A DNA stretch of 34,847 nt from Flavobacterium sp. (GTDB taxonomy: Bacteria > Bacteroidota > Bacteroidia > Flavobacteriales > Flavobacteriaceae), in the NCBI RefSeq assembly GCF_023151265.1, contig NZ_JAKLJH010000005.1:1-34847 (forward strand). The letters are read 5' to 3'. Positions 21,544 to 29,679 of this stretch are shown in pieces. The notes beneath the pieces were generated by a model. The model was given only the letters and a program-made list of their open reading frames with translations. It was not told where the DNA came from and did not search any database. The position numbers were made by a program, and so were the translations under genes. Position 1 is the stretch's first letter, and every line of letters starts with the position of its first letter.

Positions 21544-23106
21544 ATGGATATACTAAGCATAATAATTGGAATTGTTGTTGGTCTTGCGGGAGGTTTTGGA
21601 ATTGCTAAATTTTTAGAGAAAAGCAATGTTTCTAACCTAATTAAAAATGCCAAAAAAGAAGCAGCTTCGATTTTAAAAGACGCTAAAACAGAAGCTGAAG
21701 CAGCAAAAAAAGATAAAATTTTACAAGCTAAAGAGAAGTTTTTAGAATTAAAAGCAGAACACGAACAAGTAATTTTAGCACGCGATAAAAAAATGGCGGA
21801 AGCTGAAAAAAGAACGCGTGATAAAGAATCTCAAGTTTCAAATGAATTAGCAAAAGCTAAAAAAGTAAACGATGAAGTTGAAGCTAAAATTGCAGATTAC
21901 AACAATAAAATCGAATACTTAGACAAGAAACAACAAGAAATTGATAAACTTCACAGAAGCCAAGTAGAGCAATTAGAAGCTATTTCTGGATTATCTGCTG
22001 AAGATGCTAAAAATCAATTGGTAGAAAGTTTAAAAGCGGAAGCTAAAACAAATGCCATGTCATTCATCCAAGATACTGTGGAAGAAGCAAAAATGACAGC
22101 ACAACAAGAAGCTAAGAAAATCATCATCAATACTATTCAACGTGTAGGTACTGAAGAAGCAGTTGAAAATTGTGTTTCTGTATTTAACATTGAATCGGAT
22201 GATGTGAAAGGTAGAATCATTGGTCGTGAAGGTCGTAACATTAGAGCTTTGGAAGCTGCAACTGGAGTTGAAATCATCGTTGACGATACACCAGAAGCTA
22301 TCATCTTATCATGTTTTGATCCAGTAAGAAGAGAAATAGCTCGTTTAGCATTACACAAATTAGTAACTGACGGACGTATTCACCCAGCACGTATTGAAGA
22401 AGTTGTTGCTAAAACAGCAAAACAAATCGACGAGGAAATCATCGAAACTGGAAAACGTACGGTAATCGATTTAGGAATCCACGGATTACACCCTGAATTA
22501 ATTAAAGTGGTAGGTAGAATGAAATATCGTTCATCTTACGGACAAAACTTATTACAACACTCAAGAGAAGTTGCTAAGTTATGTGGTATCATGGCGGCTG
22601 AATTAGGATTAAATGTTAAATTAGCTAAAAGAGCTGGTTTATTACACGATATTGGAAAAGTACCAGATACAGAAAGTGAATTACCTCACGCAATCTTAGG
22701 TATGCAATGGGCTGAGAAATATGGTGAAAAAGAAGAAGTTTGTAACGCAATTGGAGCGCACCACGACGAAATTGAAATGAAATCATTGATTTCTCCAATT
22801 ATCCAAGTTTGTGATGCTATTTCTGGAGCACGCCCTGGAGCAAGAAGACAAGTATTAGATTCTTACATCCAACGTTTGAAAGACTTAGAAGATATCGCTT
22901 TTGGATTCAACGGTGTTAAAAACGCTTATGCAATTCAAGCAGGTAGAGAATTACGTGTTATTGTAGAAAGTGAAAAAGTATCGGATGATGCAGCAGTAAA
23001 CTTATCGTTTGATATTTCTCAAAAAATTCAAACTGAAATGACTTATCCTGGTCAAGTTAAAATTACGGTTATCCGTGAAACTAGAGCAGTGAATATTGCG
23101 AAGTAA
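21544..23106 (+). CDS. rny: ribonuclease Y
   Basis: N-terminal TM, long coiled coil, KH ([35 protein letters not shown]), HD ([10 protein letters not shown]). Confidence 0.96.
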
Positions 23107-23130
23107 GTATTAGACATTAGACAAAAATAA

Positions 23131-23167
23131 AAAATCGTATTAATTCATTTTAATGCGATTTTTTTTG
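23131..23167 (+). terminator. terminator downstream of rny
   Basis: AATCGtATTAA-ttcatt-TTAATgCGATT followed by a T-run. Confidence 0.75.
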
Positions 23168-23174
23168 TACTCAA

Positions 23175-23309
23175 TTTTGTCATTCCGTTAGGAATCTCTT
23201 TAGTGAGTGATTTTTGTTATTTGTTTTAAACATATAAGTCATGTAAGTTTTATGTTGAACTTAATTCCGATTTGAAGTTAATAAAAGAGATGCTTGACAG
23301 CATGACAAA
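23175..23309. repeat. imperfect inverted-repeat element (GTCATTCCG...GAATCTC type)
   Basis: TTTGTCATTCCGTTAGGAATCTCTTTA at the left; AAAAGAGATGCTTGACAGCATGACAAA at the right in inverted orientation. Confidence 0.7.
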
Positions 23310-23340
23310 CTAAACGTAAACCAAATAGAATTAAGATATA

Positions 23341-23415
23341 TGAAATGTCTTTGTGTAGCTCTCTCAACACAAAGTATTTCAAAAAAACTCTGTGTATCTC
23401 TGTGTAAAAACAAAC
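23341..23415 (+). repeat. solo CTCTGTG-family repeat with hairpin
   Basis: TGAAAT-gt-CTTTGTGT-agctctctca-ACACAAAG-t-ATTTCA hairpin followed by CTCTGTGTATCTCTGTGTAAAAACAAAC. Confidence 0.75.
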
Positions 23416-23416
23416 A

Positions 23417-24316
23417 CTACTTCCTCGGATGATAATTATTCAAAACTTCCGATAAGAATTTTCTATCTAAATGCATATACACCTCGGTAGTAGTAATCGA
23501 TTCGTGTCCGAGCATTAATTGTATCGAACGTAAATCGGCACCATTTTCTAATAAATGTGTTGCAAAAGAATGTCGGAATGTGTGTGGACTAATGGTTTTA
23601 TTTAAATTGATTTTTACCGCTAAATCTTTAATAATTGTAAAAACCATAGCGCGCGTTAATTGCCTTCCTCTCCTATTTAGAAAAAGCGTGTCTTCGTGTC
23701 CTTTTTGGACTGGATAATGCACTCGTATTAAATTTACATAAGAAGTTATGTATTTAATTGTAGAGCCTCCTACGGGCACAAAACGCTGCTTATTTCCTTT
23801 ACCTGTGATTTTGATAAAACCTTCTTCAAAAAATAAATCGGAAATTTTTAAACTTACTAATTCTGAAACACGCAAACCGCAACTGTACAAGGTTTCTAAC
23901 ATAGCTTTATTGCGTTCGCCTTCTGGAGTGGATAAATCTATTGCCGAGATTAACGCATCAATTTCTTCTGTTGCTAAAGTATCGGGTAATTTTCTGCCTG
24001 TTTTAGGAACTTCAATTAATTCTAAAGGGGTGTCTTTGCGATAATCCTCAAAAACTAAGTAGTTGAAAAAGCTTTTTAATCCTGAAATTATTCGCGACTG
24101 ACTTCGAGCATTTACTTGAGATGAAATTTCGTAAATGAATTGCTGAACCGTATCTTCTGTAATTGTAATGGGAGAAACCCGTATTTCATGTTGATGCAAG
24201 AACAACACTAATTTTTCGATATCAAACGTATAGTTTTCAATGGTATTTTTAGAAAGACCACGTTCTAAACGAAGATAATTTTGATATTCTTTAATATACG
24301 ATTGCCAAGTACTCAT
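23417..24316 (-). CDS. xerD: site-specific tyrosine recombinase XerD
   Basis: SAM-like N-terminal domain; catalytic residues in SCGLRVSELVSLKISDL, HTFRHSFATHLLENGADLRSIQLMLGHESITTTEVYMHL. Confidence 0.92.
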   Translation of the reverse strand: MSTWQSYIKEYQNYLRLERGLSKNTIENYTFDIEKLVLFLHQHEIRVSPITITEDTVQQFIYEISSQVNARSQSRIISGLKSFFNYLVFEDYRKDTPLELIEVPKTGRKLPDTLATEEIDALISAIDLSTPEGERNKAMLETLYSCGLRVSELVSLKISDLFFEEGFIKITGKGNKQRFVPVGGSTIKYITSYVNLIRVHYPVQKGHEDTLFLNRRGRQLTRAMVFTIIKDLAVKINLNKTISPHTFRHSFATHLLENGADLRSIQLMLGHESITTTEVYMHLDRKFLSEVLNNYHPRK

Positions 24317-25919: not shown

Positions 25920-26333
25920 ATGAAGCTTATCATTATAAATGGTCCAAATCTTAATTTATTAGGAAAAAGAGAACCCGAAGTTTACGGCAATGCCACTTTT
26001 GAATCGTATTTTGAAAAATTACAAAGTGAGTTTCCAACTATCACATTAGAATATTTCCAAAGTAATATTGAAGGGGAAATTATCAGTAAAATTCAAGAAG
26101 TAGGTTTTAGTTATGATGGTATCGTTCTTAATGCTGGTGCTTACACACATACTTCTATAGGAATAGGCGATGCTATTAAAGCAATTACAACTCCAGTTGT
26201 AGAAGTTCATATTTCCAATACATTTTCAAGAGAATCTTTTCGTCATCAATCGTACATTTCACCAAATGCTAAAGGTGTAATTATTGGTTTTGGATTGCAG
26301 AGTTATGAGTTGGCTTTAAGAGCTTTTGAGTAG
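25920..26333 (+). CDS. aroQ: type II 3-dehydroquinate dehydratase
   Basis: IINGPNLNLLGKREPEVYG, FQSNIEGEII, LNAGAYTHTSIGIGDAI, VVEVHISNTFSRESFRHQSYIS. Confidence 0.95.
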   Translation: MKLIIINGPNLNLLGKREPEVYGNATFESYFEKLQSEFPTITLEYFQSNIEGEIISKIQEVGFSYDGIVLNAGAYTHTSIGIGDAIKAITTPVVEVHISNTFSRESFRHQSYISPNAKGVIIGFGLQSYELALRAFE

Positions 26334-26528
26334 CGTTTCACTTGTTTTTTTTACACAGAGATGCTCCGAGTAAAAAGAGATTCACAGAGGTTTTTATATA
26401 CTTTGTGTTGAATGAGGAAAAGAGAGCGTTGCACTTAGTTGTTACACAGAGATACACCGAGTTAGATGAGATTCACAGAGGGTTTTATTTGCATTGTGTT
26501 AATTTGAGAGATAGAAAGAGCGTTATAT
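26334..26528 (-). repeat. upstream arm: two degenerate CTCTGTG-family units in inverted orientation
   Basis: ACACAGAG at 26353 and 26444 (91-bp spacing). The reverse complement of 26334-26360, CTCTGTGTAAAAAAAACAAGTGAAACG, closely matches 27049-27074 CTCTGTGAAATAAAACAAGTGAAACG. Confidence 0.8.
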
Positions 26529-26563
26529 TTAATTTAATTAAAGAATATTTATAAAATTAAAAT

Positions 26564-26935
26564 ATGGAAATTGATAAGTTAACAGAACAAGTAATTGGCT
26601 TGGCTATTGAAGTTCATCGTCATTTGGGTCCGGGTTTATTAGAATCTGCTTATCAAGAATGTTTATATTATGAATTAAAAAAAGCTAATTTAAAAGTTGA
26701 ACGAGAATTAAAACTTCCTCTTGAATATAAAGAAATCAAACTTGATCATGGTTATAGAATAGATTTACTAATAGAAGATAGATTAGTAATCGAAATAAAA
26801 ACAGTTGAAACTTTCACCGATGTTCATAAAGCTCAAATATTAACTTACATGAAATTAGGAAATTACAAAACAGGATTATTAATTAATTTTAATACTAAAC
26901 TATTATCTAAAGGAATTAAACGATTTGTATTATAA
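26564..26935 (+). CDS. GxxExxY protein (PDDEXK-like nuclease family)
   Basis: GLLESAY (GxxExxY); RIDLLIEDRLVIEIKTVETFTDVHKAQILTYMK fits a D-Xn-E-X-K...Q PD-(D/E)XK core. Confidence 0.88.
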   Translation: MEIDKLTEQVIGLAIEVHRHLGPGLLESAYQECLYYELKKANLKVERELKLPLEYKEIKLDHGYRIDLLIEDRLVIEIKTVETFTDVHKAQILTYMKLGNYKTGLLINFNTKLLSKGIKRFVL

Positions 26936-26949
26936 AAGTAAAAAATCTC

Positions 26950-27209
26950 GAAGAAGCTCTCAATCAAAAAAACTCTGTGTAAAGAACAAGTAAAACGCCT
27001 CAGTGTAACTCTCTAAAGACAAACAAAATTAAAAAAAGCTCCGTGAAGCTCTGTGAAATAAAACAAGTGAAACGCCTCAGTGTAACTCTCTAAAGACAAA
27101 CAAAATTAAAAAAAGCTCCGTGAAGCTCTGTGAAATAAAACAAGTGAAACGCCTCAGTGTAACTCTCTAAAGACAAACAAAATTAAAAAAAGCTCTGTGT
27201 AAAAACAAA
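26950..27209 (+). repeat. downstream arm: CTCTGTG-family units including a 77-bp tandem repeat
   Basis: Units start at 26996, 27073 and 27150 with CGCCTCAGTGTAACTCTCTAAAGACAAACAAAATTAAAAAAAGCT...; the first two 77-bp units are identical and the third is partial with an internal deletion. The array ends in CTCTGTGTAAAAACAAAC, identical to the end of the 23341-23415 solo copy. Confidence 0.9.
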
Positions 27210-27213
27210 CAAC

Positions 27214-29679
27214 ATGAAACAACAAATTACGCTATTCTTATTATTCTTAACAACAATTTCGTTCGCTCAAATTAAAGGAACCATAAAAGATAAAGATGGA
27301 AATGCTTTACCATTTGTAAACATATATATAGAGAACACCTATATAGGTACAACGTCAAATGAACATGGTAAATACGAATTAAACACTACACAGAAAAACA
27401 ATGTGCACTTAGTTTTTCAATATTTGGGATATAAAACTCAGAAACACATTTTAAACATCAGTAGTTTTCCTTTTGAGTTTGATGTAACTTTACAAGAAGA
27501 AGATTTTCAACTGAAAGAAGTTGTGGTTGTAAATGGAGAAAATCCTGCTAATGAAATTATTCGAAATACTATAAAAGAAAAAAAGAAAAATGCCGCTAAA
27601 ACCGATAAGTTTGAAGCCGATTTTTATTCGAGAGGAATTTTTAGAGCAAAAGATATTCCTAAGAAATTCATGGGCGTTGAAATTGGAGATTTAGAAGGCA
27701 ACTTAGATTCTACTAGAAGTGGTATTATTTATCAATCGGAAACTGTATCAAAAATTAAATTCCAAAAACCTGATGATTTAAAAGAAGAAATCATTGCTTC
27801 TAAAATTGCTGGTGACGATAACGGGTTTAGTTATAATACTGCACTAAAAACAAATTACGATTTTTACGACAACTACGTTGAGTTTAACATCAACATGGTT
27901 TCGCCTATTGCTGATAATGCTTTTAATTATTACAAATACAAATTAGAAAGCACTTTTTATAACGAAAGTAATCAGTTAATCAATAAAATTTTAGTTACGC
28001 CAAAACGAGACAAAGAGCCTGTTTTTGAAGGTTATATTTATATAGTTGAAGATACTTGGGCAATTTACGGAATTGACTTAGACATTAAAGGTTACAGAAT
28101 GCAACAGCCAATTCTTGAAACCATGAAATTAACACAAAGTTTTAGTTACAATTCGGATAATAAGATTTGGGCAAAAAATATTCAAACACTAGACTTTAAA
28201 GCCGGACTTTTCGGGATGAAATTTGATGGAAAGTTTACTTATGTATTTACTAATTACAACTTCAAAGATGCTTTCGAAAAGAAAACATTTGGTAAAGAAG
28301 TTGTCACTTTTGCAGAAAATGCGAACAAAAAAGAAGATTCGTATTGGAATGAATTCAGACCTGTTCCATTAACCGAAGAAGAAACGACAAATTACATTAA
28401 AAAAGATAGTTTACAAACTCTAAGGAAATCACAAGTATATTTGGATTCAGTTGATGCCAAAGGAAATAAATTCAAGTTATTGAAGATTATTACGGGTTAT
28501 ACTTATAAGAATTCGTTTAAAAACTGGAGTTTCAATTACCAAGGGTTAACCAATTTAACTTCTTTAAGTTTTAATACCGTTCAAGGTTGGAATTTAGACA
28601 GTGGTTTTTCTTTTAGAAAATGGAATGAAGAAACAGGGAAATATACTTCCATTTCATCTATAGTTAATTATGGTTTTGCCGAAGATAGATTACGCGTAAA
28701 AGGTAACTTTTATCACCGATTTAATAATATAAACAACGCTTACATAAGTTTAAACGGAGGAAGCGCCATAAGTCAGTTCAATCCAAATGAACCAATAAGT
28801 AATTTAGTAAATTCGGTAGCAACATTATTCTTTAAAAATAATTACATGAAATTGTATAATAAAGAATTTGCCGAAATTAATTACGGAAGAGAAGTCACCA
28901 ATGGTGTTTTTGCTTCAGGTAAATTATTGTACGAAAACCGAAGAGCGTTATTTAACAACACCGATTATACAATGATTAAAAATGATGATTTGTATTTTTC
29001 GAACGATCCATTACAACCTAATAATTATACTTCGGTTCCTTTTGAGAAACATCATATCATGAAAGCGAGTTTAGGAACACGAATTCGTTTTGGTCAAAAA
29101 TACATTTCGCGTCCTGATGGAAAGGTTAACATTCAAAACGATAATTATCCGATACTAAGTTTCTATTACGAAAAAGCTTTTGGAGCTTCGAACAGTAATT
29201 ACCACTATGATTTAATCAGTGGAACCGTTGATTACAACAAAACCCTAGGAAATAAAGGTGATTTTGGCTTACGCTTTAAAGCAGGAAAATTCTTTAATGC
29301 CGATAATATTTCGTTTGTAGATTATAAACACTTCAACGGAAATCAAACGCATATTAATTTGTTGAACAATTCATTGAACTCATTTAATTTACTTCCATAT
29401 TACAGTCATTCTACAAATGATGCGTATTTGGAAACTCATATTGAACATAATTTTAAAGGTTACATTATGAATAAGATTCCGTTACTAAATAAGTTACAAT
29501 GGAATTTAATTGGAGGATTTCATCAATTAAACATTCCAAATATGAAACCGTATCAAGAGTTTACTGTTGGATTTGATAATATTGGTTGGGGTAAATTTAG
29601 ATTCTTACGCGTTGATTATGTAAGAAGCTACCAAAACGGATTTCAAGGTGATGGCGTAATGTTTGGATTGAAATTTTAA
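27214..29679 (+). CDS. DUF5686 / carboxypeptidase-like regulatory domain outer membrane protein
   Basis: Signal peptide; IKGTIKDKDGNALPFVNIYIENTYIGTTSNEHGKYEL; large beta-barrel-like C-terminal region. Confidence 0.85.
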   Translation: MKQQITLFLLFLTTISFAQIKGTIKDKDGNALPFVNIYIENTYIGTTSNEHGKYELNTTQKNNVHLVFQYLGYKTQKHILNISSFPFEFDVTLQEEDFQLKEVVVVNGENPANEIIRNTIKEKKKNAAKTDKFEADFYSRGIFRAKDIPKKFMGVEIGDLEGNLDSTRSGIIYQSETVSKIKFQKPDDLKEEIIASKIAGDDNGFSYNTALKTNYDFYDNYVEFNINMVSPIADNAFNYYKYKLESTFYNESNQLINKILVTPKRDKEPVFEGYIYIVEDTWAIYGIDLDIKGYRMQQPILETMKLTQSFSYNSDNKIWAKNIQTLDFKAGLFGMKFDGKFTYVFTNYNFKDAFEKKTFGKEVVTFAENANKKEDSYWNEFRPVPLTEEETTNYIKKDSLQTLRKSQVYLDSVDAKGNKFKLLKIITGYTYKNSFKNWSFNYQGLTNLTSLSFNTVQGWNLDSGFSFRKWNEETGKYTSISSIVNYGFAEDRLRVKGNFYHRFNNINNAYISLNGGSAISQFNPNEPISNLVNSVATLFFKNNYMKLYNKEFAEINYGREVTNGVFASGKLLYENRRALFNNTDYTMIKNDDLYFSNDPLQPNNYTSVPFEKHHIMKASLGTRIRFGQKYISRPDGKVNIQNDNYPILSFYYEKAFGASNSNYHYDLISGTVDYNKTLGNKGDFGLRFKAGKFFNADNISFVDYKHFNGNQTHINLLNNSLNSFNLLPYYSHSTNDAYLETHIEHNFKGYIMNKIPLLNKLQWNLIGGFHQLNIPNMKPYQEFTVGFDNIGWGKFRFLRVDYVRSYQNGFQGDGVMFGLKF

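Follow-up and report, generated by a model that had tools for sequence, protein, structure and literature searches.

In the genome of a Flavobacterium sp., a small gene annotated as GxxExxY is found between aroQ and a DUF5686 gene and is enclosed by inverted arrays of one short word, which raises the question of whether nuclease and repeats belong together as a single unit and what such a unit would do. The block occupies ~880 bp of the window (the whole 34,847-nucleotide stretch of DNA that was analysed), running from the aroQ stop codon (26331–26333) to the DUF5686 start (27214), and its one intact gene is also its only open reading frame. The inverted arrays described in the initial annotation were confirmed, with CACAGAG on the left and CTCTGTG on the right. 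The left arm (26334–26562, plus orientation) contains the two degenerate units that had been noted after the aroQ stop codon, at 26348–26409 and 26439–26500: these are spaced by 91 bp, are 84% alike and carry CACAGAG at 26354, 26383, 26445 and 26474. At the start of this arm, directly after the stop codon, lies a GCGTTTCACTT box (26333–26343) that recurs in solo units and in the CACATAG MITE-like units described below. The right arm (26973–27208, minus orientation), whose CTCTGTG words (26973, 27049, 27126 and 27193) are the reverse complement of the left arm, comprises three tandem units of 77 nt (26985–27061, 27062–27138 and 27139–27215) that can be aligned with solo units dispersed elsewhere. 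This array had been said to stop about 5 bp short of the following start codon; it is present, but its last word ends 14 bp before 27214. The proposed terminal match (CGTTTCACTTG.. against ..CAAGTGAAACG) was confirmed and extends over 20 nt with 95% complementarity. Comparison of the two arms gave an inverted match score of 33, against 17.2 ± 2.8 for 500 dinucleotide shuffles (maximum 31) and 11 for the same-orientation match, and thus the inverted layout lies well above chance.

The gene itself (26564–26935, plus strand) encodes the intact 123-residue GxxExxY/PDDEXK-like protein that had been annotated, as borne out by full-length profile matches to TIGR04256 (E = 2e-44, 150.7 bits against a curated cut-off of 35) and to PF13366, PDDEXK_3 (E = 5.7e-43, 146.4 bits, cut-off 22). 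Residues E27, D67, E77, K79, Q91 and Y95 are invariant in an alignment of 30 relatives, a pattern that fits a predicted PD-(D/E)XK active site with a RecB-like QxxxY motif. The AlphaFold model (pLDDT 94) has as its nearest solved structures SSO0001, which we take to be a Cas4 protein, and lambda exonuclease, together with a weak fold match to I-Bth0305I (3r3p); a sequence-based search for relatives of solved structure returned no credible match. Among orthologues at the aroQ site dN/dS values are 0.04–0.12 (0.09–0.12 for the window gene against three of these), and the protein is therefore under selection to work. GxxExxY pseudogenes are frequent. GxxExxY is a common annotation, for which to our knowledge a role has never been described; in the open-access literature on GxxExxY, PF13366, Flavobacterium MITEs and dispersed repeats we found no description of a link between GxxExxY and repeats.

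The same genome (2.76 Mb in 240 contigs, 96% complete) contains four GxxExxY loci, one of them a pseudogene, and each has a word of its own in inverted orientation on its two sides: CACAGAG in the window, CGCAAAG on contig C11, a GCGGAT-type word on C150 and CACATAG around the pseudogene on C229. Pattern searches, from which all repeat counts for this genome derive, located roughly a dozen further intergenic solo units of the window word, and 12 of these align with the 77-nt right-hand unit around TTTTTACACAGAGatnCACnGAGTTTTTTTGAttttgattgtgtt..AGAGntACACAGAGnCGTTT. One such unit of ~72 bp is present in the window (23340–23411, minus orientation), between a gene at 21544–23106, presumably rny-like, and a xerD-like gene (23417–24316, minus strand); it is missing from the same junction in the relative L035, where the flanking genes are 100% and 94% identical. 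Pieces of several word families adjoin in the interval before the xerD-like gene (23107–23411), namely two copies of TTAGAC (23110 and 23117), a piece of ATATAAG (23232) and the CACAGAG solo unit, with a possible inverted pair around GTCATTCC / GACAGCATGAC. A GCGTTTCACT box was also seen to recur at 26333–26343, 27066 and 27143, in L293–L312, in L221 and in C229 of G000, that is, within units of differing word families (CACAGAG, CACATAG and others), which suggests a shared functional or ancestral part.

The words could instead be regulatory or RNA-processing signals (terminators or UTR structures) that serve the nuclease gene and others alike. This would suit the position of at least eight of the 12 solo units (L006–L028), which follow a stop codon at a distance of 4–78 bp and point the same way as the preceding gene, and the T-run present in every unit. 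Against this, the solo unit shows no conserved or significant hairpin (0 pairs by RNAalifold; DNA fold z = +1.4), folding being confined to inverted pairs such as the CACATAG units (z = −6.3), and an RNA hairpin or terminator unit was rejected on this ground. The flanking genes are moreover intact in relatives lacking the unit, and neither clade-specific words nor empty sites are explained by such signals: we consider a purely regulatory role highly improbable.

The arrangement seen in the window is general. For 159 unique GxxExxY genes from many Bacteroidota (pooled from 80 close homologues in public genomes and 82 genes of relatives), the two 300-bp flanks were searched for an inverted match, with a score of at least 20 counted as strong. 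Such a score was reached by 64% of the GxxExxY genes but by only 15% of 431 neighbouring genes, by 20% of the neighbouring genes with intergenic DNA on both sides and by 12% of randomly paired flanks from the relatives' genes; inverted words are hence far commoner at GxxExxY genes than at their neighbours, and the check on repeat enrichment suggested in the initial annotation does not refute the unit. In a phylum-wide sample of 29 loci, strong inverted flanks were present in 55%, compared with 5% of shuffled pairs. The polarity is constant over the word types, with the CACAGAG-like strand on the left and its complement on the right. Chance, or an artefact of AT-rich sequence, was ruled out as the origin of the inverted arms by the shuffles, the neighbouring-gene controls and the random pairing of flanks.

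Whilst the layout is maintained, the word is not: paralogues carry CGCAAAG, CACATAG, ATATAAG, ATTAAG, GCGGAT, CGAATTA and others, and on the protein tree the clades are marked by CACATAG, CATATAAG, ATTAAG, CGAATT, ACGGAT, CGCAAAG, GCAGAT and CACAGAG/CACAAAG. Word similarity was scored between the left arm of one gene and the reverse-complemented right arm of another from a different neighbourhood, and at such non-orthologous sites it is predicted by protein identity (Mantel r = 0.535, 0 of 500 permutations). The word is shared in 70% of non-orthologous pairs with at least 70% identity and in 6–8% of those below 45%; it is common to a gene and its nearest non-orthologous relative in 99 of 151 cases, against 12 of 151 for random distant genes. 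Orthologous flanking DNA as the source of this correlation is reduced by the choice of pairs with different neighbours and by the cross-arm comparison. At the map/methyltransferase site, the CAAAG and CAGAG versions change in concert between the left and right arms (rho 0.64, n = 50), a value to which shared ancestry contributes. Because related nuclease genes carry different, matching words, the gene and its repeat have the appearance of a single selfish unit that copies itself, although the correlation of word and protein could also reflect simple linkage within a unit that is moved by another enzyme.

Comparison with relatives reveals that the unit comes and goes. The window species and L034–L043 have the unit between aroQ and DUF5686, and a junction without the block, the other check suggested in the initial annotation, was found in at least 13 relatives and so likewise does not refute the unit, the closest being G012 (aroQ 90% and DUF5686 88% identical). 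The terminal inverted repeat of the L043 unit is perfect over 31 bp, and native intergenic sequence follows it; neither a target-site duplication nor an exact boundary is readable at L043 or at the MITE-like L297 sites, where the flanks have diverged. Empty sites are known for the gene unit, the solo unit and one MITE-like unit. Further evidence comes from a clade (L078, L086, L091, L099, L103, L105 and L113) found in Bacteroidales and Lutibacter MAGs, whose members are 84–94% identical yet lie in unrelated neighbourhoods and in different taxonomic orders: their homology spans the gene together with an upstream inverted dyad and ends sharply on the 3' side near the stop codon, so that gene and repeats travel together. 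This clade (L078/L091) is at the same time the exception to two-sided flanks, with an inverted dyad upstream and none downstream; it is probably the most recently mobile group. Gene and word arrays thus form one unit, with presence/absence polymorphism and dispersed gene-less derivatives, and the proposal that they belong together is supported by this polymorphism, by the clade-specific words and by the enriched inverted flanks.

Mobility of this kind might also be ancient and mostly over, with the nuclease now beneficial to its host (its substrates being, for example, foreign DNA or replication intermediates) and the arrays kept as anchoring or self-recognition sites. The purifying selection on the gene would agree with a domesticated or defensive role, as would the long time for which it has been inherited vertically at the map site in different Flavobacteriaceae genera and the lack of any match for the window clade in viral contigs (on which ground a phage-borne origin was rejected). 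Of the 159 GxxExxY units, 55 are found at or beside the map/methyltransferase site, and such long-lived occupancy of one site by many units is unlike a restless transposon and counts against a selfish unit. However, the patchy presence, the many pseudogenes, the paralogues with different words and the recent movement of one clade across taxa all fit a selfish element better, and we regard the domesticated alternative as improbable.

The gene-less derivatives are clearest for the CACATAG word. In G006 and G015 this word forms many units (L293–L312), each ~133 bp long with inverted ends of 20 bp and amounting to tens of copies per genome, and the gene-bearing copies in the same genomes, L276 (G006) and L273 (G015), have the same ends and share an internal box, GGCGTTTCACT, with the gene-less units; L276 and L273 have one in-frame stop each. 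Within the MITE-like units there is also a palindrome, CACATAGCTATGTG, as well as a second hairpin, AGAAACTAGTTTCT. One intergenic site is occupied by a CACATAG unit in G006 and by an inverted pair of CGCAGATT words in G015, with neither in G004, which hints at insertion hot spots; the CGCAGATT unit of G015 lies at G015:C9:220280-220477 (L318).

Repeat number tracks gene presence, imperfectly in the case of ATATAAG. At least four CACATAG dyads are present in 7/7 genomes with the cognate gene and in 7/30 other genomes of the same genus (p = 0.0003), CACAGAG dyads in 20/30 GxxExxY carriers and 1/7 non-carriers (p = 0.017), and ATATAAG in 5/5 carriers of its type and 12/32 others (p = 0.014), these p-values being only a guide because carrier status was set by inspection of the flanks and the genomes are related. 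Mean dyad numbers within the genus, in genomes without and with GxxExxY respectively, are 0.9 and 12.6 for CACATAG, 1.4 and 10.7 for ATATAAG, and 0.1 and 3.5 for CACAGAG. There are genomes in which many copies occur and no cognate gene was found, with 44 CACATAG copies in G004, 50 CACATAG and 95 ATATAAG copies in G008, and 10 ATATAAG copies in G011, which has no GxxExxY whatever; gene loss or another driver may account for these. Such genomes speak against a selfish nuclease unit and in favour of the nuclease as a passenger, in which case MITE-like word units would owe their movement to another enzyme (IS transposase or host recombinase) and GxxExxY would be cargo retained for some other role such as repair or defence.

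The passenger explanation also draws on a second gene family. TIGR02436 genes, which encode four-helix proteins of the S23 type, are common in the same genomes as GxxExxY, and those of the relatives (L223–L242) likewise have inverted word arrays on both sides: 63% reach a score of at least 20, against 6% of shuffled pairs (n = 19), and the flanks are therefore not specific to one enzyme. Their words are of the TTAGAC, GTGACAAAG and GTGAATAG types. In spite of this, each GxxExxY clade retains its own word across unrelated sites, the window block contains no other gene, and dyads are scarce in same-genus genomes without GxxExxY, all of which weighs against a passenger; we consider it unlikely that the nuclease is only cargo. 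The Coxiella S23p ORF offers a precedent of a kind, being part of an intervening sequence of ~430 nt in 23S rRNA that has been called selfish and in which tandem heptamers (GACAGAT) precede the ORF (PMC4990558). The likeness lies in a small ORF accompanied by tandem short words; the differences are that the S23p/TIGR02436 fold is a four-helix bundle, unlike GxxExxY, and that the known S23p elements are located in rRNA, from which they are excised by RNase III (PMC4990558).

Returning to a selfish nuclease–repeat unit, one close parallel is REP/RAYT (TnpA-REP) with its BIMEs and REPINs, in which inverted repeats flank a nuclease gene and are also dispersed, including as inverted doublets (PMC2817692, PMC3116915), whilst gene and repeat co-diversify and repeat number tracks the gene (PMC2817692). 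GxxExxY shares the gene between inverted repeats, the dispersed repeats, the co-diversification and the tracking. The enzymes differ, RAYT being an HUH Y1 tyrosine transposase and GxxExxY a PD-(D/E)XK protein: no Y1 domain (Transposase_17, PF01797) was found in the window protein, which matches PF13366 and TIGR04256 only. The repeats differ as well, consisting here of tandem words of 7–8 bp, and the CACAGAG solo unit has neither a hairpin nor a GTAG/GTGG head. Lacking both an HUH enzyme and a palindromic repeat, the block is not a member of REP/RAYT. With IS elements and their MITEs (for example ISCca4/MITECca01, PMC9769881) the units have in common terminal inverted repeats, empty sites and gene-less derivatives with the ends of the gene-bearing unit (L293–L312 and L276/L273); unlike an IS, they can be only ~500 bp and have inverted arrays rather than one TIR pair, and no known transposase (DDE, HUH, serine or tyrosine recombinase) is present in the window block. 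PD-(D/E)XK homing endonucleases such as I-Bth0305I are likewise encoded by a small gene, and GxxExxY could similarly cut an empty allele that is then repaired from the occupied one; the GxxExxY unit differs in lying outside any intron, intein or essential gene, in having its own inverted repeats and in leaving dispersed gene-less copies. Dispersed repeats away from the gene are what is expected of a RAYT/REP- or IS/MITE-like pair, and by analogy the unit may work as these do with an unrelated PD-(D/E)XK enzyme.

Taken together, we judge it probable that the block is a small selfish nuclease–repeat unit, in which the nuclease acts on its own word arrays and copies are thereby spread or homogenised. 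To judge from the sequence patterns, the nuclease would recognise and spread its own word. Binding would take place at the arrays, where words of 7–8 bp recur every 8–10 bp, roughly one turn of the helix. As the solo unit has no hairpin, the nuclease would read the word in linear form and not, in the manner of REP/RAYT, as a folded strand. The nuclease would then cut at or near these arrays, and copying could follow by either of two routes. In one, a second copy would serve as the template for repair (homing or gene conversion), a process that would in addition maintain the likeness of the arms and expand the tandem units; in the other, the unit would be excised and reinserted in an IS/MITE-like manner.

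Should the nuclease turn out to be the driver, the family would constitute a new class of mobile element. In its broadest form, to which we give even chances, GxxExxY would be a bacterial mobile-element class in which a single PD-(D/E)XK enzyme of ~120 residues reads a tandem word particular to its clade and multiplies gene-less word units as well as its own gene, with at least eight word specificities across Bacteroidota and with four-helix S23-type proteins as a second, unrelated driver. If the block is indeed a selfish nuclease–repeat unit, GxxExxY would be the enzyme of an overlooked selfish system that would explain much of the short intergenic repetitive DNA of Flavobacteria, representing an independent, non-HUH solution to the task performed by REP/RAYT. 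The pairs of enzyme and word would be a natural specificity table, in which the recognised word is predictable from the flanks, and such a table would make DNA recognition by the PD-(D/E)XK fold directly testable.
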